Assembly: GCF_002795805.1 (NCBI RefSeq)
Contig: NZ_CP018799.1
Coordinates: 1,047,001-1,111,000, forward strand
Source: Mariprofundus aestuarium
GTDB lineage: Bacteria; Pseudomonadota; Zetaproteobacteria; Mariprofundales; Mariprofundaceae
Reading direction: 5' to 3'
DNA length: 64,000 bases
Shown here: one piece after another, positions 1,834 through 39,854 of the stretch
Layout: the number at the start of each line of letters is the position of its first letter
Position numbering within the stretch: position 1 is the stretch's first letter
Notes under the pieces: generated by a model
The model's input: only the letters and a program-made list of their open reading frames with translations
The model's database searches: none
What the model was told of the DNA's origin: nothing
Position numbers and translations under genes: made by a program

Positions 1834-2160
1834 ATGAGTGAACTACCGCAAATCCCAGAAGATAGAATTAAAGCTGCCAGTCAGGGTTTAAGAGCCATTG
1901 CGCACGAATTGCGCCTCTCCGTGCTCTGCCTGCTGCTTGAGCGCCCGATGTGTGTACATGAATTGATTGAGGCAACCGGAGCCGCGCAGTCCAACCTGTC
2001 GCAGCATCTTGCTAAGATGCGTATGCTTGGTATTCTTGAAAATGAAAAGAGGGGACAGGAAGTCATTTACCGCATCGCCAACCCGGCGTTTGCTGATCTG
2101 GTGCAGTCCTTGAAGTTTATCTACTGCCCAGAGATGTGTGTGCCCTCTAAGGGGGAGTAA
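1834..2160 (+). CDS. ArsR-family repressor, possible persulfide sensor
   Basis: Winged-helix repressor of 108 aa. The helix-turn-helix core (roughly residues 38-65, with NLSQHLAKM) and beta-wing are clear. Cysteines are at 32, 40, 98 and 102. A cysteine in the first part of the HTH (C40, in PMCVHEL) plus cysteines in the last helix (C98, C102) resembles the two-cysteine layout of the BigR/SqrR/YgaV persulfide sensors more than the ELCVCDL metal site of classical ArsR. The gene heads a run of efflux, DUF2892, rhodanese and OsmC genes, which supports a sulfur-stress role. A thiol-metal sensor remains possible. Its stop overlaps the next ATG (TAATG). Confidence 0.85.
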   Translation: MSELPQIPEDRIKAASQGLRAIAHELRLSVLCLLLERPMCVHELIEATGAAQSNLSQHLAKMRMLGILENEKRGQEVIYRIANPAFADLVQSLKFIYCPEMCVPSKGE

Positions 2161-3536
2161 TGCCATTTTTTTGCTCTAATGTATCAGTAAATTCTAATTC
2201 TGTAATAAAGCCTCTACTTCTTGCGGGGGCTGTTTTTGTGACCCAGCCAATGGCTGTTGCAGGAGATATTTCGACGCTGAGAGAGAGCGTGGAGTATGCG
2301 CTCACACATAACCGGATGCTGGGCGCTAATGCACAGTCTGTAGAGCAGGCCAATGCCGGCCTTTCCGATGCAACAGGGCGTCTGCTGCCGCGTGTTGATC
2401 TCTCCAGTGGCGTGGTTCGCAGCAATGCGCCGGGAGACTATTTCGGCATGAAGCTGAACCAGAAGGGTATCACTGCTGCCGACTTCAACCCGGCCGTGAT
2501 GAATAACCCCGGTTATATCAATAATTACCAGACCCGTGTCGGCGTGACGATGCCCCTGTATCAGGGGGGCGCGCTCTGGGCAGGCCGGAAACTTGCTTCA
2601 CATCAAGCGGATGCAAGTCTCTACGGGCATGACTACATGAAACAGCAGATTGTGTTTCAGACGGTGTCAGTCTATGCGAGAGTAAGGCAGTCGCAGGCGC
2701 ATATTGAAGCGATGCAGGGCGCTGTAGTTGCAGCAAAAAAACGACTTCAGGATACAGAGGCCATGGAGAAGCGTGGTGTTCTTATCAAGAGTGATGTCAT
2801 GGATGCCCGTGTTCACCTGCTGCGCACGACGGTCCAGCTGGAAGAGGCGAAAAACGCTTTAGCCGGCAGTAAGGACATGCTCGAGCAGGTGATGGGGCTG
2901 AACGGCGATGTGGCGCTGAATACTGAAGAGGATCCGCACCTGAAGATGCCTGTCATGACTCTGGAAGAGGCGATTGAAAAGGCACTTGCGGCTCGTCCAG
3001 ATCTGAAGGCGCTTGAAGAGAATCATATGGCTGCCTCCGCTGGTATCGACAGGTCACGTGCAGCCTTCCTGCCACACGTTGATCTGGTAGCCGCACAGGA
3101 TTGGAACTCATCCACCTTTGGTATGAAAAATCGCAACTCTATGGTTGGTGCGACAGTGACTATGAATATCTTCTCTGGCGGTTCCGACGCAGCCAGAATG
3201 CGTGCGGCTCAGGCTGAAACGGTGTCGCTGGAGTATAAAACTGGCGATCTCAAGCAGCAGATTCGCAATGAAGTGTCTCATGCCTGGCGACAGCTGGCTG
3301 AGTCCCGCATGCGCTTTGAAAGTGAAAGCGAAGCGATGCACCAGAGTGATGAGTCGCTGCGTATCAAATCGCTGCGCTATGAGCAGGGGCTAACCAAGAC
3401 CTCTGATCTTCTCGACGCACAGGTGCAGACCGATTCAACGCGTGTTTCCACGATTCGCGCAAAATATGATGTAACGGTTGCCGAGGCGGCGTTGCTGCTG
3501 GCAGTCGGCGCTCTCAGTGAAGAGGTGATTCAATGA
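2160..3536 (+). CDS. TolC-family outer membrane efflux protein
   Basis: Outer-membrane channel of a tripartite efflux pump, 458 aa, close to the usual TolC/OprM length. The N-terminus has a hydrophobic stretch (about residues 15-33) ending in an Ala-rich cleavage region, so it is probably exported by Sec. Two repeated OEP halves are visible, each rich in long amphipathic coiled-coil helices (near residues 150-230 and 350-430). The start codon overlaps the arsR stop (TAATG), and the stop overlaps the start of the membrane-fusion gene (ATGA). This is tight coupling in one operon. Confidence 0.9.
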   Translation: MPFFCSNVSVNSNSVIKPLLLAGAVFVTQPMAVAGDISTLRESVEYALTHNRMLGANAQSVEQANAGLSDATGRLLPRVDLSSGVVRSNAPGDYFGMKLNQKGITAADFNPAVMNNPGYINNYQTRVGVTMPLYQGGALWAGRKLASHQADASLYGHDYMKQQIVFQTVSVYARVRQSQAHIEAMQGAVVAAKKRLQDTEAMEKRGVLIKSDVMDARVHLLRTTVQLEEAKNALAGSKDMLEQVMGLNGDVALNTEEDPHLKMPVMTLEEAIEKALAARPDLKALEENHMAASAGIDRSRAAFLPHVDLVAAQDWNSSTFGMKNRNSMVGATVTMNIFSGGSDAARMRAAQAETVSLEYKTGDLKQQIRNEVSHAWRQLAESRMRFESESEAMHQSDESLRIKSLRYEQGLTKTSDLLDAQVQTDSTRVSTIRAKYDVTVAEAALLLAVGALSEEVIQ

Positions 3537-4558
3537 ACAGACATTTCGCTTTTGCCGTAGCGGTTTCATCCGGGTTGTTGCTGGTAGCCTGTGGTTCTGA
3601 TGATGGGAACGGCGATGCGGGGCAGCCGGTGCTCTCCAAAGCTGATACTTTGACACTTACCTCAGTTGAACTACCTGCGCGCTACGTCACCAGCGGCACG
3701 GTCACCTCCGACCATCGCGTTTCGATCAGCTCGCGTATCTCCGGTTATATTCGTGAGCTTCCGGTACGGGAAGGTGATCGCATTAAAACAGGCCAGGTGC
3801 TGGTTCGTGTTGATCCTGTGAATGCACGTCAGGGTCTTGTGCAGGCTGAAGCAGACCTGGCCGATGCAAAAGGTGACCTGAATCGCTACGAAGAGCTGTT
3901 CAAAGCCAGTGCTGTAAGTAAGCAGCAGCTTGACCGTGTTCGCCTGCGCTACAAGGTGGCTCGCTCACAGGTTGAACAGGCACGCAACCAGCTCAGCTAT
4001 GCTGAGGTGCGCTCACCTGTTGACGGTGTTGTTGTTGAAAAACGCATGAATAAGGGTGACTTGGCATCACCGGGTGCGCCGATTCTGCTGCTTGAAGATC
4101 CAGCCAACCTGCTGGTGGAGACATATGTATCTGATCAGTTCGTCAGCGGTATCCGCGAGGGTGATGAGGTTGAGATTGAGGTTTCATCGCTGCAGCAGGC
4201 TTTTACAGGTGTTGTACGCCAAGTCGTGCAGGCGGCCGATGCCGTCTCTCACCAGTTTCTGATCAAAATTGCCCTGCAGGCACGTGATGATGTGCATCCG
4301 GGTATGTACGCGCAGGTCGGATTTAAGGTCGGCAGCCGCAAGGGGTTGCAGGTTCCTGTTGCTGCCGTGATTGAGCGTGCTGGTTTGAATGGTACCTATG
4401 TGGCCGATAGCAACGGAATTGTGCACTACCGCCAGATCCGTCTCGGCCAGAAGCGGGGCGAGCAGATCGAGGTTCTGGCAGGGCTTCATGATGGAGACAC
4501 CGTTGCCTGGAACGGAGCGCCTGCACTTGTAACCGGCATGAAGCTACAGGCCAAATAA
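3533..4558 (+). CDS. RND efflux membrane fusion lipoprotein
   Basis: Periplasmic adaptor (AcrA/HlyD type), 341 aa. A lipobox LVAC places the lipidated cysteine at residue 20, so it is anchored to the inner membrane. A barrel-sandwich hybrid (about 60-95 and 155-190) flanks a short alpha-hairpin (about 95-155), followed by beta-barrel and membrane-proximal domains. It links the RND transporter to the TolC channel encoded upstream. Start and stop overlap both neighbours (ATGA and TAATG). Confidence 0.92.
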   Translation: MNRHFAFAVAVSSGLLLVACGSDDGNGDAGQPVLSKADTLTLTSVELPARYVTSGTVTSDHRVSISSRISGYIRELPVREGDRIKTGQVLVRVDPVNARQGLVQAEADLADAKGDLNRYEELFKASAVSKQQLDRVRLRYKVARSQVEQARNQLSYAEVRSPVDGVVVEKRMNKGDLASPGAPILLLEDPANLLVETYVSDQFVSGIREGDEVEIEVSSLQQAFTGVVRQVVQAADAVSHQFLIKIALQARDDVHPGMYAQVGFKVGSRKGLQVPVAAVIERAGLNGTYVADSNGIVHYRQIRLGQKRGEQIEVLAGLHDGDTVAWNGAPALVTGMKLQAK

Positions 4559-7500
4559 TGAGCGATAAATCATCTCAGAACAGTGAGGCTCCTCTGAATA
4601 TTGCAGGGCGCCTCGGTAAAGCGGCGATGTTCTCCAATCTGACACCGATGATCAGCCTACTGATTTTTCTGGTTGGTGCAGTGGCGTTGATGGTGACGCC
4701 ACGTGAAGAAAATCCCCAGATTGATGTGCCTGCAGCTAATGTGTTTGTACAGATGCAGGGTGCCAGTCCCGAAGAGGTGCAGAACCTGATTGTGCGCCCG
4801 ATGGAGATGGTGCTGCGCGAGATTACCGGTGTAGAGCATACCTATGGCATGGCGGTGGATTCGCTGGCAGTCGTGACGGTGATGTTCGAGGTTGGCGAGG
4901 ATAAAGAGGTTAGCCTCGTTAAGCTCTATGATCGAATTATGCAGAATATGGACCGGATTCCGGCCGGCGCTTCGCAGCCGCTGGTTAAACCGGTGGATGT
5001 TGATGATGTGCCTGCCTCGGTGATTACACTCTCATCGCGCGAACTGGACGGACTGGCTCTCAAGCGGCTCGCAGAGCGGGTTCGTGACCAGCTCGCGCCA
5101 CTTGATGGCGTTTCCGTAGCCGAAATTATCGGTGGCCGCGATCACGAGATCAGTATCCGTCTCGATCCGGCACGCCTGGCTGCTTACCGTATTCCGCTTG
5201 ATCAACTGCACAACGTTTTGGTATCAGCCAATGCGGGTGGCCCGGTGGGATCACTGGTCGGTGACAACCGTGAAACAAAAATTTGGCTGAATGGTTACCT
5301 GAAAACCGCCGAAGAGGTGGGGCAGCTGGTGGTCGGAGAGTGGCAGAACAGGCCGATCTATCTCAAGGATATTGCCAAGATCAGCGACGGTGCCGCTGAG
5401 GCTGAGAATTATCACCGTATTGGTTTCGGAGCATCTGTAACCGGAGCAGGTATCACTGGTGAGCCTGAGCTGCCTGCTGTATCCATTGCGCTGGCAAAAA
5501 AGCGTGGCACCAATGCCGTTGATGTGACTCAGCGCATCGAAGCCAAGCTCAATGAACTGAAGGGCGATTTTATCCCCAATAACGTACAGGCCACAATCAC
5601 CCGCGATTCGGGGTTGCGTGCCAATGCTGCAGTGAACATGCTGATCGAACATCTGGGCATCGCGATCGGAACTGTAATTCTGATTCTGCTGCTCTTCCTC
5701 GGCTGGCGAGAAGCAGCCATCGTGACCATGAATATCCCGCTGATTCTGTTTGTGGTGCTGGCAATCGGGCTGATGGCCGACCAGACAATCAACCGGATTA
5801 CGCTCTTCGCTCTGATCCTGGCGCTCGGCCTGCTGGTAGATGATGCCATTGTTGTGATCGAAAATATTCACCGCCACCTGCACAAGGGTGTAAAGGATGC
5901 GGCTGATAAGGCGCGGCTGATCGTGACCGCAACCAACGAAACGGGTAAGCCAACCATTATCGCTACTATTGCCGTGATCCTCGCATTTGTGCCGATGGCA
6001 TTCGTGACTGGAATGATGGGGCCGTATATGGGGCCGATTCCTTTTAATACACCCATTGCCATGGCTGCATCGCTGGTCATTGCATACATGTTTACACCGT
6101 GGATTGCGCAGCGTTTTCTGCCGACGAAAAATGTGACTGCTGTCCAGCATAGCAACAGCGATGAAGAGAAGGACTGGGTCTACCGTACCTATATGCGTTT
6201 TGCTGTGCCGCTGGTCGAGAAGACCCGCGTCCGCAAAGTTTTCTGGATTGTCACGCTGCTACTGTTTCTTGCCGCCATGATGCAGCCGGGTTGGCAGTTT
6301 ATCAGGCCGGCGGGTATCAACGGCCCGCTTACGCCAGGCACCGTTGAATTGAAGATGCTGCCCAAGGGCAACAACAACACCTTCAATCTTACTATTGATT
6401 TGCCGGAAGGGGCGACACTGGAAGAGAGTGATCGCGTATCCCGTCAGGTGGGTGATGTACTGCGTGCCCATCCGATGGTGGTCGATTATGAGACATTTGT
6501 AGGTCAGGCTGGACCTGTAGACTTCAATGGCATGTTGCGTGGTGCCGTGCTCAGGAAGGGGGCTAATCTCGCCGAGATTCGCGTTAACCTGGTCGATAAA
6601 CATGAACGCTCGATCCGCTCTGTAGGTATCGTACTGGAGCTGCGCGAGCTGTTGGTACCTGTTATGGCAGCCAACCCGCATGCCATTATCAAACTGGTTG
6701 AGGATCCACCTGGTCCTCCAGTGCGTTCAACGCTGCTGGCGGAGATTTACGGACCTGACTATGAGACCCAGCGACAACTGGCCAAAGAGGTACGCAAGAG
6801 ATTTGTTGAAACCTATGATGTTATCGATGTTGATGACTCAGTAGGTGATGACCAGATGCAGTTGAATGTGCATGTGGACAAGCAGAAGGCAGCGCATCTG
6901 GGCGTGGCAACGCAGCAGGTTGTTACTGCCCTCCAGGATTTCCTGAGGGGCTACGACTTTGGTGCCATGCACGTTGATGAGGAGCGCCACCAGGTGCGCC
7001 TGCATGTGCAGTTGCCAAAAGCGCTGCGTGCCCATGCCGAGGACTTGCATCGCATCTATGTCAGTGGTGCACAGGGGGCGGTTCCGCTCTCTGCTATTGC
7101 TGTGATTGAAGAGAGCATGGCCAGTAAACCGATCTATACCAAGGATGGTCATCCGGTCACTTATGTGATGGCTGAGCCTAAGCAGGGTTCACAGGTTTAC
7201 CCGCTGCTGGAGATGGATGGCAAGATTGATGAGCACGAGGTACTGCCGGGTGCTACCGTGAAGACAGGCGGTATGCGCTTTACCGATACCGCACCTGACA
7301 ACACCTTTGGTTACCATATGCTGTGGGATGGAGAGATGCGTCTGACACTGGATGTGTTCCGCGATCTTGGTGCGGCATTTATTGTGGCACTGGTGCTTAT
7401 CTTTCTGCTGATGGTGGCTTATTACGGACAGTTTGTCCTGCCTATGATGGTGATGGCACCGACTGCACTGACGATGATCGGCATCTTCCCCGGTCACTGG

Positions 7501-32657: not shown

Positions 32658-33290
32658 ATGGAAGTGAGTCTCAAGTTTGAGAAAGCGTTGGCGGATATGG
32701 ACCGGGTAAGGGCCCGGGAAATCATCTTAGCCGGTGCGGATGAGGAGGGGACACTGGCGTGTGTCTCCAATATAGTAATACCAGCCCTTGAGAAGATCGG
32801 TCTGGGCTGGGAATCAGGCAGGTATGCCCTTGCACAGGTCTATATGAGCGGCACGATCTGCGAAGAGCTCGTGGATGAAATTCTTCCGCCGGCCGACCCC
32901 AACCGTATCAAGCAGCCCAATATGGGTATTGTCGTGCTTGAGGATTTTCATGTGTTAGGTGAGAGAATCGTCTACTCGATACTTCGGGCCAGCGGTTATG
33001 AGCTGCAGGATTTCGGACACGGCCTGCATGTTGATGAGGTGATTGAAAAGGTCAAAGAGCACGGTACGAAAATCCTGCTGGTGTCGGTGTTGATGCTGCG
33101 CTCAGCCCTTCTGGTTGGCGATCTGGTCAAGCGGCTGAAGGAGGAGGGGCTCGATGTGAAGGTAGTCGTGGGCGGTGCACCGTTTCGCTTTGATCACAAC
33201 CTCTGGAAGGAGGTTGGGGCTGATGCCACAGGCAAGGATGGCATGGAGGCCCGGGATATTATTTCCGGAATGTTAGGGGGTGTGTCATGA
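32658..33290 (+). CDS. corrinoid (B12)-binding protein
   Basis: 210-aa MtaC/MetH-type corrinoid protein. A helical cap (residues 8-77) is followed by a Rossmann B12-binding domain. The base-off/His-on motif DxHxxG is present as D96-F-H98-V-L-G101, followed by SVLM and GGAPFR, which complete the corrinoid site. The ATG at 32658 (GGAGG 10 nt upstream) fits the family start. The open frame extends upstream but would run back into the aminotransferase gene. It overlaps the next gene as ATGA. It probably carries a methyl-corrinoid for, or sensed by, the downstream proteins. Confidence 0.9.
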   Translation: MEVSLKFEKALADMDRVRAREIILAGADEEGTLACVSNIVIPALEKIGLGWESGRYALAQVYMSGTICEELVDEILPPADPNRIKQPNMGIVVLEDFHVLGERIVYSILRASGYELQDFGHGLHVDEVIEKVKEHGTKILLVSVLMLRSALLVGDLVKRLKEEGLDVKVVVGGAPFRFDHNLWKEVGADATGKDGMEARDIISGMLGGVS

Positions 33291-34330
33291 ATGGTGAATC
33301 AATGACCTCACTACAGCGCGTACTGACCACGCTCGGCCATCAGGAGCCGGACCGGGTGCCGTTTTTCCTGCTGCTGACGATGCATGGCGCCAGAGAGATG
33401 GGACTATCCATCGAGGAGTATTTCTCCAAGGCTGAGCATGTTGTCGAGGGGCAGCTGAAACTTCGGGCCAAATACCGGGATGACTGCATCTACAGCTTCT
33501 TCTACGCTCCGATCGAGGTGGAGGCATGGGGCGGTGAAGTGATCTATTTCGAGGATGGCCCTCCCAACTCGGGCCGACCTTTTATCCAAGATCCGCGACA
33601 GATTACGGATTTGGCGGTGCCGGATATTCATGACATGGCCTGCCTCGCCAAGGTGTTGAAGGCGACCCGGATGATCAAGGCTGAAATCCAGGATGAGGCG
33701 CCGATTATCGGGGTGGTGATGTCACCTTTCTCCCTGCCGGTCATGCAGATGGGTTTTCCCGCTTATATCAGGCTGATGTATGAGAACAGGCCGCTCTTTG
33801 AGAAGTTGATGCAGGTGAACGAGGAGTTCTGTGTTGCATGGGCAAATGCCCAGCTTGAGGCGGGGGCGACTGCGATCTGTTATTTCGACCCGGTTGCATC
33901 TACGACGGTTACCAATCGAGAGATGTATCTTGAAACCGGCTTCAAGGTGGCCCAGCGCACGATTGCCCGCATCAACGGGCCAACAGCGACCCACATGGCC
34001 TCCGGGTGTTGCCTGCCGATTGTTGATGATATTGCTCAGACCGGCACTGCAGTGGTTGGCACCAGCGTCATGGAGGATCTCGCCACCATGAAGGATGCCT
34101 GCAGAGGGAAGCTTACGATACTCGGCAACATGAATGCGATTGAGATGCGTAACTGGACACCATCGCAGGCGGAGGCGGTGGTTAAGGATGCAATTGCCAA
34201 GGCTGGTTCTGGCGGTGGTTTCATTCTTTCGGACAACCACGGTGAAATTCCCTGGCAGGTGCCCGATGAGGTGCTGCTCAATATCTCCGATGCAGTGCGT
34301 GAATGGGGCAAGTACCCACTGAAAATGTGA
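33287..34330 (+). CDS. UroD/MtaA-family protein lacking usual zinc ligands
   Basis: 347-aa TIM-barrel protein of the uroporphyrinogen decarboxylase / methylcobamide:CoM methyltransferase superfamily (LxHQEPDRVPF start, central GATAICYFDP, C-terminal VLGTSVMED-like and ILGNMNA strands). In MtaA-type methyltransferases zinc is held by His-x-Cys and a later Cys. Here the first site reads H236-M-A-S-G-C241-C242. The later Cys is replaced in the segment SDNHGEIPWQVP (N317-H318). Methyl transfer to a thiol is therefore doubtful, or the metal site is altered. It is coupled by overlap to the corrinoid protein upstream and precedes a DUF1638-like kinase. Confidence 0.88.
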   Translation: MNGESMTSLQRVLTTLGHQEPDRVPFFLLLTMHGAREMGLSIEEYFSKAEHVVEGQLKLRAKYRDDCIYSFFYAPIEVEAWGGEVIYFEDGPPNSGRPFIQDPRQITDLAVPDIHDMACLAKVLKATRMIKAEIQDEAPIIGVVMSPFSLPVMQMGFPAYIRLMYENRPLFEKLMQVNEEFCVAWANAQLEAGATAICYFDPVASTTVTNREMYLETGFKVAQRTIARINGPTATHMASGCCLPIVDDIAQTGTAVVGTSVMEDLATMKDACRGKLTILGNMNAIEMRNWTPSQAEAVVKDAIAKAGSGGGFILSDNHGEIPWQVPDEVLLNISDAVREWGKYPLKM

Positions 34331-34331
34331 T

Positions 34332-34337
34332 GGGAGG
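34332..34337 (+). promoter_or_regulatory. strong RBS supporting an ATT start
   Basis: GGGAGG lies 5 nt before ATT at 34343 and just after the stop of the UroD-family gene (34328-34330). The kinase frame is open from this stop onward but holds no ATG, GTG or TTG until 34508. The position of the Shine-Dalgarno sequence is what points to ATT as the initiator. Confidence 0.5.
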
Positions 34338-34342
34338 TTGTC

Positions 34343-36184
34343 ATTAAATTATTTGTCTGCAGCTACTTCAGGACCGAGACTGAACAGGCGCTCAAGCTTG
34401 CCGGTATTGATGGTGAGGTCGTTGGTTTTCCCGCCCAGTGCGGGCGTCCACCGACAGATTGGAACAGACTTATCTCCGACAGTGGTAATGCTGATGAGCC
34501 ATCTCTTGTGTTGGGGGGCTGCTGCACCACCAACCTCGATCCGCTGCAGTGGCCGGATCGAACCATCAAGGTTCATCACGTTGAGCAGTGCTTCTACCTC
34601 TTTATGCAACCACAACTGGTCAATCACTATATGGCGAAAAGTTATCACCTTATCACTCCGGGTTGGCTCTCCGGCTGGAAAAACCAGATCGAGCATGTGA
34701 TGGGCTTCGATCAGCAAAGTGCCAGGCGTTTTTTCCAGGAGACAGCAAAGCGGCTGCTTCTGGTAGATACCGGCACCGACGCAGGGAGTGCTGGCAGGTT
34801 TGCTGATATGGCCGAGTATCTGGATATCCCATCGGAGCGGATTGAAGTGGGACTGGATTATTACAGCCATCTTCTCAAGCGGTTAAGCAGTGATCTTTCG
34901 ACCGAGGATGCCCATAAGAGACTGGATGAGGCACTCCAGCAGCAGGCAGAGTATGCGATGGTGGCCGACCTGCTCGGCAGGCTTACCGACCAGAAGAGCG
35001 AGTATGATATCACCCATGCCTTGATTACTACCTTCCAGATGCTTCTGGCACCAAAGCAGTGCTCCTATATCCCATGGGAGGATAACGGTTTTGGCCAGCC
35101 CCTCAGTTCAGAGCCGGATCATGCCACTGCAGCACAGGCATCAATTGATCCTGCTGGCGGCGATTTTGGCTGGATTGATGAAGATGGTTTCTGGGTAAGG
35201 ATCAGCAGTTCAGATGAGACCTTCGGTTTTATCGCGATTGAGAAGATCGCTTTTCCTCAGCATCGGAGCCGCTATCTCAATATGGCGCTCTTGATCCGTA
35301 ACGTGGCAGCGCTGGCGATCAACCATGCCCGTGATTTCCAGACAATATCCGATCTCTCGCACGATTCAGGTAAGGGCGAGGTGGCCCGTGAGGTGATCCA
35401 CAATGCCGGCAATGTGCTTAACAGCATCAATATCTCCGTACAGCAGCTGCAGTCGCAGCTTGAGAAAACCTCGGTCAGAAGCCTGCCTGCTATCGTGGCG
35501 CTGATGCAGGAGCAGGGGGAGAAGCTTGGTGAGTTCATCACCTCGGATCCAAAAGGCAAACAGATACCGGCCTATTTCGAGCAGCTTGCCCAAGCTGTGG
35601 CGGGCGAACAGCAGCAGTGGCGGGATGATCTCATGCAGATGGCCGAACATGTCGAACATGTGAGGGCCATCATTCAGTCACAAAGCGGTTCGCTGGAGAG
35701 TAACGAGGTCAAAGAGACGATCAGCCCGGCGAAACTCCTGAATCGCTCTCTCGGTCATTTTACCGAACGTATTGAAGAGCTTAAAATCGACCTGCAACGG
35801 AAAACAGGCACTGTTCCCACCTGTGCACTGCAGAAACACAAGGTGATGCAGGTGCTGGAGAACCTGTTGAAGAATGCGATTGAAGCGCTTGCTTTGGTTG
35901 GTGATCGACCTCGAAGGATTGAACTGAAAATAGAAATGGTTGGAAATGACCGATTCTGTTTTGAGATCTGCGACAACGGCCCCGGCATCAGCGGGGAGCT
36001 GAAAGAGAAGGTCTTCTCACACGGCTTCTCCACCAAGGAGGGCCACTCGGGGTTTGGGCTGCACAGCGCAGCTAATCTTGCCGTTGAGATGGGTGGCCGG
36101 TTAATCCTTTCCCATAGTGAAGATGGGAAGGGAGTCTGTTTTAGGCTTGAGTTGCCGATGGTGACAAATCATGCCGTGGAGTAG
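34343..36184 (+). CDS. DUF1638-like/histidine kinase fusion, putative ATT start
   Basis: 613-aa protein if read from ATT at 34343, or 558 aa from GTG 34508. The N-terminal 170 residues (KLFVCSYFRTETEQAL, FPAQCGRPP, LVLGGCCTTN, HHVEQCFYLF, ITPGWLSGW) resemble DUF1638, a family found beside corrinoid methyltransferases. A GAF-like middle (about 230-335) and a kinase core follow: H-box VIHNAGNVLNSIN with H353, N-box ENLLKNAIEAL, G1 DNGPGIS, G2 GHSGFGLHSAA. The GTG start would delete the first beta-strands and a conserved-looking Cys, so the longer form is favoured. No TM. Inferred role: reads the state of the corrinoid/UroD pair and phosphorylates the regulators downstream. Confidence 0.8.
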   Translation: MKLFVCSYFRTETEQALKLAGIDGEVVGFPAQCGRPPTDWNRLISDSGNADEPSLVLGGCCTTNLDPLQWPDRTIKVHHVEQCFYLFMQPQLVNHYMAKSYHLITPGWLSGWKNQIEHVMGFDQQSARRFFQETAKRLLLVDTGTDAGSAGRFADMAEYLDIPSERIEVGLDYYSHLLKRLSSDLSTEDAHKRLDEALQQQAEYAMVADLLGRLTDQKSEYDITHALITTFQMLLAPKQCSYIPWEDNGFGQPLSSEPDHATAAQASIDPAGGDFGWIDEDGFWVRISSSDETFGFIAIEKIAFPQHRSRYLNMALLIRNVAALAINHARDFQTISDLSHDSGKGEVAREVIHNAGNVLNSINISVQQLQSQLEKTSVRSLPAIVALMQEQGEKLGEFITSDPKGKQIPAYFEQLAQAVAGEQQQWRDDLMQMAEHVEHVRAIIQSQSGSLESNEVKETISPAKLLNRSLGHFTERIEELKIDLQRKTGTVPTCALQKHKVMQVLENLLKNAIEALALVGDRPRRIELKIEMVGNDRFCFEICDNGPGISGELKEKVFSHGFSTKEGHSGFGLHSAANLAVEMGGRLILSHSEDGKGVCFRLELPMVTNHAVE

Positions 36185-36188
36185 CGAT

Positions 36189-37067
36189 TTGGAAGAGATC
36201 AACAGAAGGGTCCTCGTTATCGATGATATGCAGGATATCCATGCCGACTATCTACGAGTTCTGGTTGAAACGACTGAATCATCAGCCGTAGATGCTCTTG
36301 CCTCTGATATTCTCGATGGCGGTTATGAAGGGGCCGTCTCCAAGGCAGGTTTTGATGTGGATTGTGCCTCTCAGGGCCAGAAGGGGGTGGAACTTGTCGA
36401 GAAAGCGCTGGCAGAGGGGCGCCCCTATGCCGTCGCTTTTGTTGATGTGCGTATGCCACCGGGCTGGAATGGCATAGAGACGATAAGGCATATCTGGCAG
36501 GTCGATCCCGATATCCAGATAACCATTGTGACCGCCTATTCCGATTACAGTTGGGGGGATATCACCCGGGACCTGGGCGATACAGATCAGCTGCAGTTAT
36601 TGAAGAAGCCATTCGAGAGCATCGAGCTGCTCTCCATTGCCACTTCCCTGTCGCGCAAATGGGATCTGATGCACAGAATGAAGTTGATTGAGCAGGAATT
36701 TACCATTATGGATGGGCATGGTGAGATGATCTTGCTGCTGGATGGTAAAGGGAGTGATCGTGCTGTAGGAGAAGGGGTGTTAGAGAGCCTTGGTTACAAG
36801 GTGTTGGCTGCATCAGATGAGCAGGAAGCGGTGGCGCTGTTTAATGCGAACAGGGACCTTGTTGATCTTGCCCTGATAGACTTGAACAGTGGCGGTGATG
36901 CTGTGAAACGCCTGCAGGAGTTGGCCCCTGAGCTGAAAGTGATCCTTTGCGACCATGATCCGGGCAATCATCTGGGCTATGCGAAACGGGCAGAGGAGAG
37001 CATCATTGTGAAACCGTTCAGAATGAATATCTTGAGCCAGAGGTTGCGCCATGAGTTGGAGACCTGA
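36189..37067 (+). CDS. double-REC response regulator, second REC degenerate
   Basis: 292-aa protein of two receiver domains and no output domain. REC1 (about residues 5-160) is complete: VIDDM, phospho-acceptor D86 in [18 protein letters not shown] and LKKPF. It carries the 30-residue loop insertion also seen in the next protein. REC2 (about 175-290) keeps LALIDL and IVKPF but has lost the acidic pair at its start (ILLLDG), so it is probably not phosphorylated. TTG 36189 with GGAG 7 nt upstream was chosen. ATG 36171, overlapping the kinase end, is the alternative. It could act as a phosphate sink or relay between the two kinases. Confidence 0.87.
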   Translation: MEEINRRVLVIDDMQDIHADYLRVLVETTESSAVDALASDILDGGYEGAVSKAGFDVDCASQGQKGVELVEKALAEGRPYAVAFVDVRMPPGWNGIETIRHIWQVDPDIQITIVTAYSDYSWGDITRDLGDTDQLQLLKKPFESIELLSIATSLSRKWDLMHRMKLIEQEFTIMDGHGEMILLLDGKGSDRAVGEGVLESLGYKVLAASDEQEAVALFNANRDLVDLALIDLNSGGDAVKRLQELAPELKVILCDHDPGNHLGYAKRAEESIIVKPFRMNILSQRLRHELET

Positions 37068-37070
37068 GAG

Positions 37071-39854
37071 ATGGATGCGATGAACCGGAGGGTTCTTGTC
37101 ATTGATGATATGCCCGAATTGCATGCCGATTATAGGCGTGTTCTGGCCCCGTCTTCCGAATCTTCTGCATCCGACTCGCTGGCTGCAGATATTCTCGGTA
37201 ATTACGCGCCGCCCGAGGCAGTAAAACGTCCGAACTTTATCGTTGATTGCGTCAGCCAGGGTGAAGAGGGACTGGATATGGTGGAGAGGGCGCTGGCCGA
37301 GGGTAGCCCCTATGCCGCAGCCTTTGTCGATGTGCGCATGCCACCGGGGTGGGATGGCATCGAAACGATTAGGCGCATCTGGCAGGTAGATCCCGATATT
37401 CAGGTCACTATTGTTACCGCCTACTCCGACTACAGTTGGGAGCATATGCAGAAGGAGCTGGGTGCCACAGACCAACTGCTGGTATTGAAGAAACCGTTCG
37501 AGAGCATTGAGGTTCAGCAGATCGCCGCAGCACTGACCCACAAATGGAATCTGATGCGCAGGGTAAAAGAGCAGCAGCATGAGTTGCAGGAAAAGAATCT
37601 TGCACTAAGAGCGGAACACGACTTTTCGGTTGGCCTGCTCAATGCCGCCCAGACGATTGTGCTGCTGTTGAACAGGGATGGAACCATTGAATATATCAAC
37701 CCATTCATGGAGGCGTTGAGCGGTTATACGCTGGATGAGGTGAAGGGAAAGGACTGGTTTGACACCTTTCTGCCGAAAGCGGATCACAATGAGATTCGCA
37801 AACTTTTTTCTGAGGCAATAGAAGACATACAGACGCATGGCAATATTAATCCGATTGTTGCCAGTGATGGCCATGAGATTCTCATTGAGTGGTATGATAA
37901 AACGCATCGAAATGAAAAGGGGGAAGTCATAGGCCTGCTCTCCATCGGTTACGATGTCACCGAGCGCAAACTGGCTGAAGCTGAACTGTTGCAGAGTAAA
38001 GAGCGATTCAGGCAGGTGGTTGAACAGGCTTCCGATGGGATTTTCATGGCGGACATCAACGGGCAGTATGTAGATGTGAATAGTGCCGGTTGTCAGATGC
38101 TCGGTTTTGAGCGCAGCGAAATCATTGGTAAAACCATTGTTGATCTGATTCCTCCAGAAGATGTGCATCGCCTTCTGGAATCAAAAGAAGAGATGATTGA
38201 GGGCGCTGCTCATACCTCTGAATGGAGACTGAAAAGAAAAGATGGCACATTCGTTCCGGTTGAGGTGAGTGCCAACATCCTTCCAGATGGCCAGTGGCAG
38301 GGGTTTGTCAGAGACATCAGAGAACGAAAGAGAGCCGAGGCAAGGATTCGTAAACTGTCACAGGCGGTAGAACAGTCAGGTGAGGCGGTGGCGATTACTG
38401 ATCTTGAGGGCACCATCGAATATATCAATCCGGCCTTTACTGCGCTTACTGGATACAGTGAAGAGGAGGCAATCGGGCAGAACCATCGCCTTCTCAAGAG
38501 TGGTGACCAGCATGGCGATGCCTACCGGAAGATGTGGGAGGTGATTTCGACAGGCCGGGTGTGGCAAGGCAAGGTGATTAACAGGGCGAAGTCGGGTGAT
38601 CTCTATCCTGCGATGCTCACCATATCGCCGATCAGGGGTGAGGATGACAACATCACCAATTACATCGGTATCCAGCAGGGGCTGAAGGAGTACGAGGAGT
38701 TGGAAGAGCAGTTCCACCAGGCCCAGAAAATGGAGGCGATCGGAACACTTGTCGGCGGCATTGCCCACGATTTCAATAACACGCTGGCGGGTATCACCGG
38801 CAACCTCTATCTCGCTAGGAGAAAGGCTGCTGAGATGCCGGAGGTGATCAGGCACATTGATAGTGTCGAGAAACTATCATTCAGTGCTGCAGCGACGATT
38901 CAGAAGCTGCTCGCCTTCTCCCGCAAGGGGATCGTCCAGATGCAAACCCTATCGATCTCATCCTTCCTCAAGGAGGCAGTCAAACTGCTGAGGGTTTCCC
39001 TGCCGGAGAACATTGCATTCAAGCTGGATGTAAAAGAGGTGGGTATGCTGGTTCGCGGCGATATCAATCAGCTGCAGCAGGCACTGATGAACTTGATCAA
39101 CAACGCCCTCGATGCGGTTGAAGCAGTGGAGTCACCGATCATTGAAATGGTGCTGGAGAGATTCCATGCCGATGACTCTTTCCTACAGCATCACAAGGCT
39201 GTCGAGGGTGAATATTTCGCTCTGATCCGGGTCAGGGATAACGGCAAGGGGATCAGCGAAGAGCATCTTGATCATATCTTCGAGCCTTTCTTTACCACCA
39301 AGGATGTAGATAAGGGAACCGGCCTTGGCCTCTCGATGGTCTATGGCACAATTACCAGCCATGGCGGTGTGATCGATGTCGAATCAGAGGTCGGTTCCGG
39401 AACAGAACTCTCGATTTATCTGCCACTTGTGACTGCTGAAGAGGATGCCGCTCTCCCTGCTGCAACGGATGAGGTGGTGATGGGGCAGGGCGAAACGATC
39501 CTGCTGGTCGATGATAACGGGAGCGTGTTGGAGATCGGCAGGGATATTCTCGAGGGGCTGAATTATCACGTGATTACAGCCGAGGATGGGCAGCTTGCAG
39601 TGGCAAAATACCAGAGCCGTTTTCAGGAGATTGATCTGGTGATTCTTGATGTTGTGATGCCGCATCTTGGAGGCCCCGAGGCGCTACGGCTGATCAGGGA
39701 GATCAATCCTGATGCTAAAGCGATCTACGCTACCGGTTATGACAAGTTGAGTGCGCTTGGTAAAGAGAGGGCTGAGATTGATGAGCCAGTGATCTCCAAG
39801 CCTTATGCAGTGAGTGATATGAGTCAGGTCATACGTCAGGTGCTGGAGGGTTAA
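37071..39854 (+). CDS. REC-PAS-PAS-PAS-kinase-REC hybrid sensor
   Basis: 927-aa soluble hybrid kinase. The N-terminal REC (D87) is a close paralogue of REC1 in the preceding protein, sharing the [10 protein letters not shown] start and the DVRMPPGW(N/D)GIETIR block. Three PAS domains (about 190-305, 315-425, 435-545) precede the kinase core with H566 in [12 protein letters not shown]-box [11 protein letters not shown] and [10 protein letters not shown]-like G2 ([10 protein letters not shown]). A C-terminal REC has D860 in ILDVVMP. The input REC lets the upstream kinase gate this one. It starts 4 nt after the previous stop. Confidence 0.94.

Follow-up and report, generated by a model that had tools for sequence, protein, structure and literature searches.

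Why are genes that resemble parts of a corrinoid methyltransferase joined in one operon with a histidine kinase? This question was raised by a locus of Mariprofundus aestuarium, whose genome is a single contig of 2,537,610 bases. The window, namely the whole stretch of 64,000 nucleotides analysed here, covers positions 1047001-1111000 of this genome. An operon of five plus-strand genes lies at 32658-39854 of the window (Table 1). Pfam and sequence analyses confirmed the genes that a sequence-only reading had listed: a DxHxxG corrinoid protein, a UroD protein, a DUF1638-kinase with H353 and a double-REC protein. Its description of the genes as overlapping or abutting was also borne out, with overlaps of 4 and 14 nt and gaps of 12 and 3 nt. 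Homologues of the double-REC protein also come after related kinases in Desulfocapsa and Electrothrix. An Rfam scan of the window revealed no riboswitch and no other RNA, and a promoter/terminator scan gave no more sites than were found in shuffled sequences.

Table 1. Features of the operon, in window coordinates.
Feature	Position	Strand	Basis
Corrinoid (B12-binding) protein, DxHxxG, 210 aa	32658..33290	+	ATG start after GGAGG; PF02310 7e-17, PF02607 2e-9
UroD/MtaA-superfamily protein, 347 aa	33287..34330	+	PF01208 5.5e-51; alignment to MtaA 4ay7; conservation in 80 relatives
DUF1638::GAF-like::histidine kinase, 613 aa, ATT start	34343..36184	+	Pfam domains, start-codon context
DUF1638 domain, Cys C6/C33/C61/C83 near-invariant (613-aa numbering)	34343..34936	+	PF07796; alignment of 61; model pLDDT 94
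GAF-like reader domain (our own name)	34937..35371	+	Profile matches in 75/80 loci, alignment, modelled secondary structure
H353 codon, predicted phospho-acceptor in VIHNAGNVLN	35399..35401	+	Sequence
HATPase_c (DNGPGI, GHSGFGLH)	35840..36160	+	PF02518 1.9e-18; ZraS fold match Z 22.8, 152 residues, rmsd 1.6
Double receiver-domain protein, 298 aa	36171..37067	+	PF00072, two stretches
REC-PAS3-HisKA-HATPase-REC hybrid kinase, 927 aa	37071..39854	+	Pfam domains

The kinase starts with ATT, located 5 nt downstream of GGAGG. Between the stop codon of the UroD gene and position 34508 there is no in-frame ATG, GTG or TTG, and a caller restricted to these three codons begins the kinase at 34508, which cuts DUF1638 in half. 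In the nearest relative, the sister genome G044 (2,301,665 bases), ATA occupies the kinase start position (L063, around 11892). Both starts are preceded by a strong Shine-Dalgarno sequence. ATT and ATA are rare initiators, and therefore the stoichiometric production that the sequence-only reading expected from the spacing of the genes is not implied. The numbering of H353 is correct if the protein is counted from the ATT at 34343. Automatic annotation of such kinases will lose half of DUF1638.

To describe relatives of this locus, we call the corrinoid-UroD-reader arrangement of the window type A and a second, RamA-containing set type B. Six type A UroD proteins were aligned and the alignment was used as bait against named genome contigs. 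It detected 269 relatives, and the best-scoring 80 (61-73% identical) were analysed with their flanks; weaker relatives may differ from these 80 UroD-baited loci. The hosts of the best 80 belong to about a dozen phyla, including Thermodesulfobacteriota (31 loci), Pseudomonadota (15), Chloroflexota, Nitrospirota, Bacteroidota, Bacillota, Myxococcota, Ignavibacteriota, Spirochaetota, Verrucomicrobiota and others. No relatives were found in viral contigs. The UroD tree requires 23 changes of phylum label, against a minimum of 10, which fits transfer between phyla without proving it. The corrinoid gene adjoins UroD in all of the best 80 relatives. In 77 of 78 loci (two end before the next gene), the next gene encodes a DUF1638 and/or GAF-like reader with an output. 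The exception is L085, in which type I restriction-modification genes follow the corrinoid/UroD pair (1986-6532) and the reader has apparently been lost. In the cable bacterium Electrothrix the order is UroD-corrinoid-kinase (L145, L146), and L115 contains a second UroD copy.

The reader of the window consists of three parts. The sequence-only reading had proposed that its N-terminal domain is related to DUF1638, and this is so: PF07796 gives 35.3-35.4 bits (E 1.3e-8; gathering cut-off 27). Readers have four near-invariant Cys residues in this domain and solo DUF1638 proteins have Cys-His-Cys-Cys, with His at the second position. Because the type of ligand is exchanged at only one of four columns, this suggests a putative metal site. 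The predicted DUF1638 structure is confident, and no convincing solved structural relative was found for it (best Foldseek E 0.017; VIA, best Z 7.7 over 105 residues, rmsd 3.0); such weak matches of a model do not show that the fold is new. The DUF1638 and GAF-like profiles also found no solved sequence relative. DUF1638 is separated from the output by a conserved domain of about 155 residues, which Pfam GAF recognises in 1 of 78 readers. Its predicted secondary structure is compatible with a GAF fold. We call it only GAF-like because the fold search was dominated by matches of the kinase core. This domain, which no complete reader lacks, occurs in 75 loci. DUF1638 is missing from 14 of them and is thus not the universal reader. 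The kinase core contains HATPase_c (67 bits; cut-off 26) and an H-box with H353, as expected of a two-component sensor histidine kinase, and its fold matches ZraS and HK853 with Z of 22. The Pfam HisKA model has no match in it.

Do the corrinoid and UroD proteins act as enzymes? They might constitute a functional methyltransferase that acts on a methylated substrate, with the kinase regulating the operon. Both belong to methyltransferase superfamilies, and in the mec cassette of dichloromethane degraders, too, corrinoid and UroD proteins are grouped with a kinase; this PocR-domain kinase, MecA, is thought to regulate the operon (PMC9768040). The corrinoid protein matches PF02310 and PF02607 and carries the lower-ligand motif D96-F-H98-V-L-G101, whose D96, H98 and G101 are kept in 79-80 of 80 relatives. 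Together with S143, L145 and G172-G173, these invariant residues indicate that the protein binds cobalamin. It scores 83.6 bits against TIGR02370 (methyltransferase cognate corrinoid protein), below the curated cut-off of 215.3. The UroD protein is a member of the URO-D superfamily (PF01208, 174 bits; gathering cut-off 23.9), and its score against TIGR01463 (MtaA/CmuA family methyltransferase), 98.5 bits, is below the curated cut-off of 235.4. Regulated catabolism is weakened because the HxC...C zinc ligands of MtaA are absent from the UroD protein in the alignment to MtaA 4ay7 and in the 80 relatives. H236-x-A238 is found instead in 79 of 80, and D316-N-H318-G-E, which contains no Cys, lies at the C-terminal site. 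Methyl transfer to a zinc-activated thiol by the UroD partner is therefore unlikely. The invariant residues H236 and D316-N-H318-G-E suggest that a small molecule may be bound.

The neighbourhoods also speak against a methyltransferase under kinase control: they contain no recurrent metabolic gene, whether for a second methyltransferase, an acceptor enzyme, a transporter or another function. In the 8 kb around each of 72 de-replicated loci, non-signalling families occur in six loci at most, and the most frequent of them is a generic ABC ATPase. Of 13 UroD genes in the same genomes that belong to neither type A nor type B, one adjoins a kinase (L191). A fourteenth control UroD, in Thermodesulfovibrio (L200), turned out to belong to a type B set, similar to that of Mariprofundus. 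We also searched from the side of the reader, using DUF1638 or GAF-like profiles as baits in 398 genomes of Pseudomonadota and 148 genomes of the Desulfonema phylum. The GAF-like profile matched 12 and 2 genomes, respectively. The sequence-only reading had tied its kinase to the corrinoid/UroD pair. For DUF1638 readers this held, because all 11 genes with upstream context come after corrinoid and UroD genes, independently of the UroD bait. It did not hold for the GAF-like family as a whole: an orphan GAF-like kinase of 1346 aa without DUF1638 (L182, 3200-7237) has neither a corrinoid nor a UroD gene in the fetched stretch. Thus, the GAF-like domain can occur alone.

The outputs of the readers are diverse. 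Pfam detected HATPase_c in 47 of 78 readers, HisKA in 32, HisKA_2 in 2, GGDEF in 13 and REC in 12; DUF1638 was matched in 57 of the 78 at E 0.001. Acetobacterium fimetarium (L161) and Methylobacter oryzae (L155) are among the hosts of GGDEF readers. Thirteen readers end in a short CxxCK...GYW C-terminal domain. The cysteine-rich end of the short readers L101, L092, L105, L112 and their relatives reads CxxCKxIRDDxGYW...FSHGIC. Supported sister groups have unlike outputs: L126 has GGDEF and L127 a kinase, and L104 has a kinase and L116/L128 have GGDEF. In L114, L126 and L147, one corrinoid/UroD pair is accompanied by two readers with differing outputs. Fused GGDEF and other non-transcriptional outputs are difficult to reconcile with a kinase that regulates a catabolic operon. 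Correlations of pairwise distances (Mantel) were 0.53-0.73 among the corrinoid, UroD, DUF1638 and GAF-like parts and 0.43-0.58 between the ATPase domain and these parts; all values are positive, so that outputs also partly track the input, and the contrast is suggestive but not decisive.

A search of the whole genome for DUF1638 revealed the type B set at 206.8-217.8 kb (L032, 3840-14841). Its closely spaced genes encode, in order, a RamA-like reactivase, a corrinoid protein, UroD, a solo DUF1638, a GAF/PAS protein, a binding-protein lipoprotein, a hybrid kinase and a REC-PAS-kinase-REC protein. The GAF/PAS protein was considered as a member of the GAF-like family, but the GAF-like profile did not match it at E 1e-4. 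In L076 (2553-4364), type B corrinoid and UroD share a single open frame of 604 aa, a possible fusion. The DUF1638 search was extended to 398 genomes of the phylum. There, all 10 type B loci with UroD have adjacent signalling genes, and none of the four DUF1638 loci without UroD does; in these four, corrinoid and DUF1638 occur as in the split methionine synthase. Solo DUF1638 and RamA have been tied to cobalamin reactivation (Price et al., PMC5764234; PMC12478193). The presence of the reactivase in type B operons is what one would expect of a working methyltransferase. However, of 23 genomes searched, 15 contain RamA and 8, several of them incomplete bins, do not, so that the system need not depend on Co(I) being rescued repeatedly by reduction. 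Taken with the missing zinc ligands, the absence of recurrent metabolic partners and the fused outputs, this makes regulated catabolism improbable.

We infer from gene linkage that the corrinoid and UroD-like pair is probably the input half of a cytosolic sensor, which is read by a DUF1638/GAF-like protein with a swappable output. This is because the outputs vary, no other family recurs, and other UroD genes rarely adjoin kinases. The view of the sequence-only reading that the pair is sensory input rather than part of a catabolic route is thus strongly supported by fixed inputs, exchanged outputs and the lack of a recurrent metabolic partner. In such a sensor, the UroD-like protein would bind a small compound and set the state of the corrinoid cobalt, which could be a matter of alkylation, of oxidation or of the axial ligand. 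Having reached this state, the corrinoid protein would dock on the reader, either on DUF1638 plus the GAF-like domain or on the GAF-like domain alone, and the docked reader would switch its fused output. In the window, the kinase would autophosphorylate on H353, and its phosphotransfer partners would be the double-REC protein and the hybrid kinase.

What might such a sensor detect? If the pair is a sensor, the methyl or alkyl state of cobalt, which the sequence-only reading had proposed, may quite conceivably be the signal; its redox or axial-ligand state is a somewhat weaker candidate, and ligand binding alone is rather unlikely. The methyl-state signal is weakened because a RamA-type reactivase is missing from 8 of the 23 genomes. 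A methyl-state sensor is therefore plausible and possible, but not strongly favoured over one that senses redox or ligand state. A detector of redox state or oxygen would be one special case of the sensor: the cobalt, perhaps together with the Cys4 site of DUF1638, would signal its Co(I)/Co(II)/Co(III) state at oxic-anoxic interfaces, and the UroD-like protein would act as a structural cap or an electron-transfer partner. Many hosts live in gradients (Mariprofundus, Beggiatoaceae, cable bacteria, magnetotactic bacteria), the four near-invariant DUF1638 cysteines of the readers would suit such a role, solo proteins having Cys-His-Cys-Cys at these positions, and RamA is dispensable. On the other hand, the invariant UroD residues hint at a bound small molecule and the anaerobes Acetobacterium and Syntrophomonadaceae carry the system too, so that we consider a redox or oxygen sensor rather doubtful.

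Sensing of light by a CarH- or photocobilin-like B12 photoreceptor was also considered. Known photoreceptors combine cobalamin domains with GGDEF (PMC10979010, PMC11796333), and the corrinoid protein has a near-invariant Trp, W51. The photocobilin signature is Trp61 followed by Glu71-His72 (PMC10979010). Here the Trp is present but the Glu-His ten residues on is missing, being replaced by [VIL]61-Tyr62 in all but one sequence per site, and the protein is not assigned to this family. Moreover, the hosts are mostly sediment and deep-water bacteria, and a photoreceptor scheme leaves UroD without a role. Light sensing is thus very improbable.

Returning to the corrinoid/UroD sensor, we tentatively propose a fuller picture, in which an environmental methyl compound would alkylate the corrinoid and the DUF1638/GAF-like reader would sense this, perhaps through methyl transfer to the Cys4 site, with outputs ranging from His-Asp phosphorelays to cyclic-di-GMP; these proteins would then form a widespread undescribed sensor class. 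Alkylation of the corrinoid, if it is the signal, would make this a sensor of a new kind. Annotation routinely assigns corrinoid and UroD-like genes to methyl metabolism. If the sensor interpretation is true, sulfate reducers, cable bacteria, sulfur oxidisers, iron oxidisers and acetogens possess hundreds of these pairs as sensors, B12-dependent sensing extends beyond light, and metabolic predictions from these genes are wrong. The signal detected by these interface bacteria would also become testable with purified proteins.

The component superfamilies are known; what appears to be new is their probable use as input to modular signalling, and we found no description of a three-part input with exchanged outputs in open-licence PMC papers. 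In MtaA/CmuA-type systems for methanol, chloromethane and O-demethylation, the UroD protein adjoins a two-domain DxHxxG corrinoid protein as it does here. Unlike in those systems, the present proteins score below the cut-offs, lack HxC...C and a second methyltransferase, and are coupled to signalling proteins. The split B12 methionine synthase of Phaeobacter and Ruegeria (PMC5764234, PMC12478193) resembles the present system in that DUF1638 works with a corrinoid protein, and three Cys positions are common to both. However, its DUF1638 is solo and implicated in cobalamin reactivation, whereas here the domain is fused to kinases or cyclases and type A loci have no RamA nearby. CarH and photocobilins (PMC10979010, PMC11796333) share a corrinoid-domain sensory input, in some cases with GGDEF, but they are single-chain proteins that use adenosylcobalamin and Trp...Glu-His, without UroD or DUF1638. 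The mec cassette (PMC9768040) clusters all three kinds of genes, encoding the kinase MecA, the corrinoid protein MecB and the UroD-type MecC/E; it differs in its PocR sensory domain, several methyltransferases and catabolic function. In summary, the known systems that come closest are the B12-based light sensors and the mec cassette.
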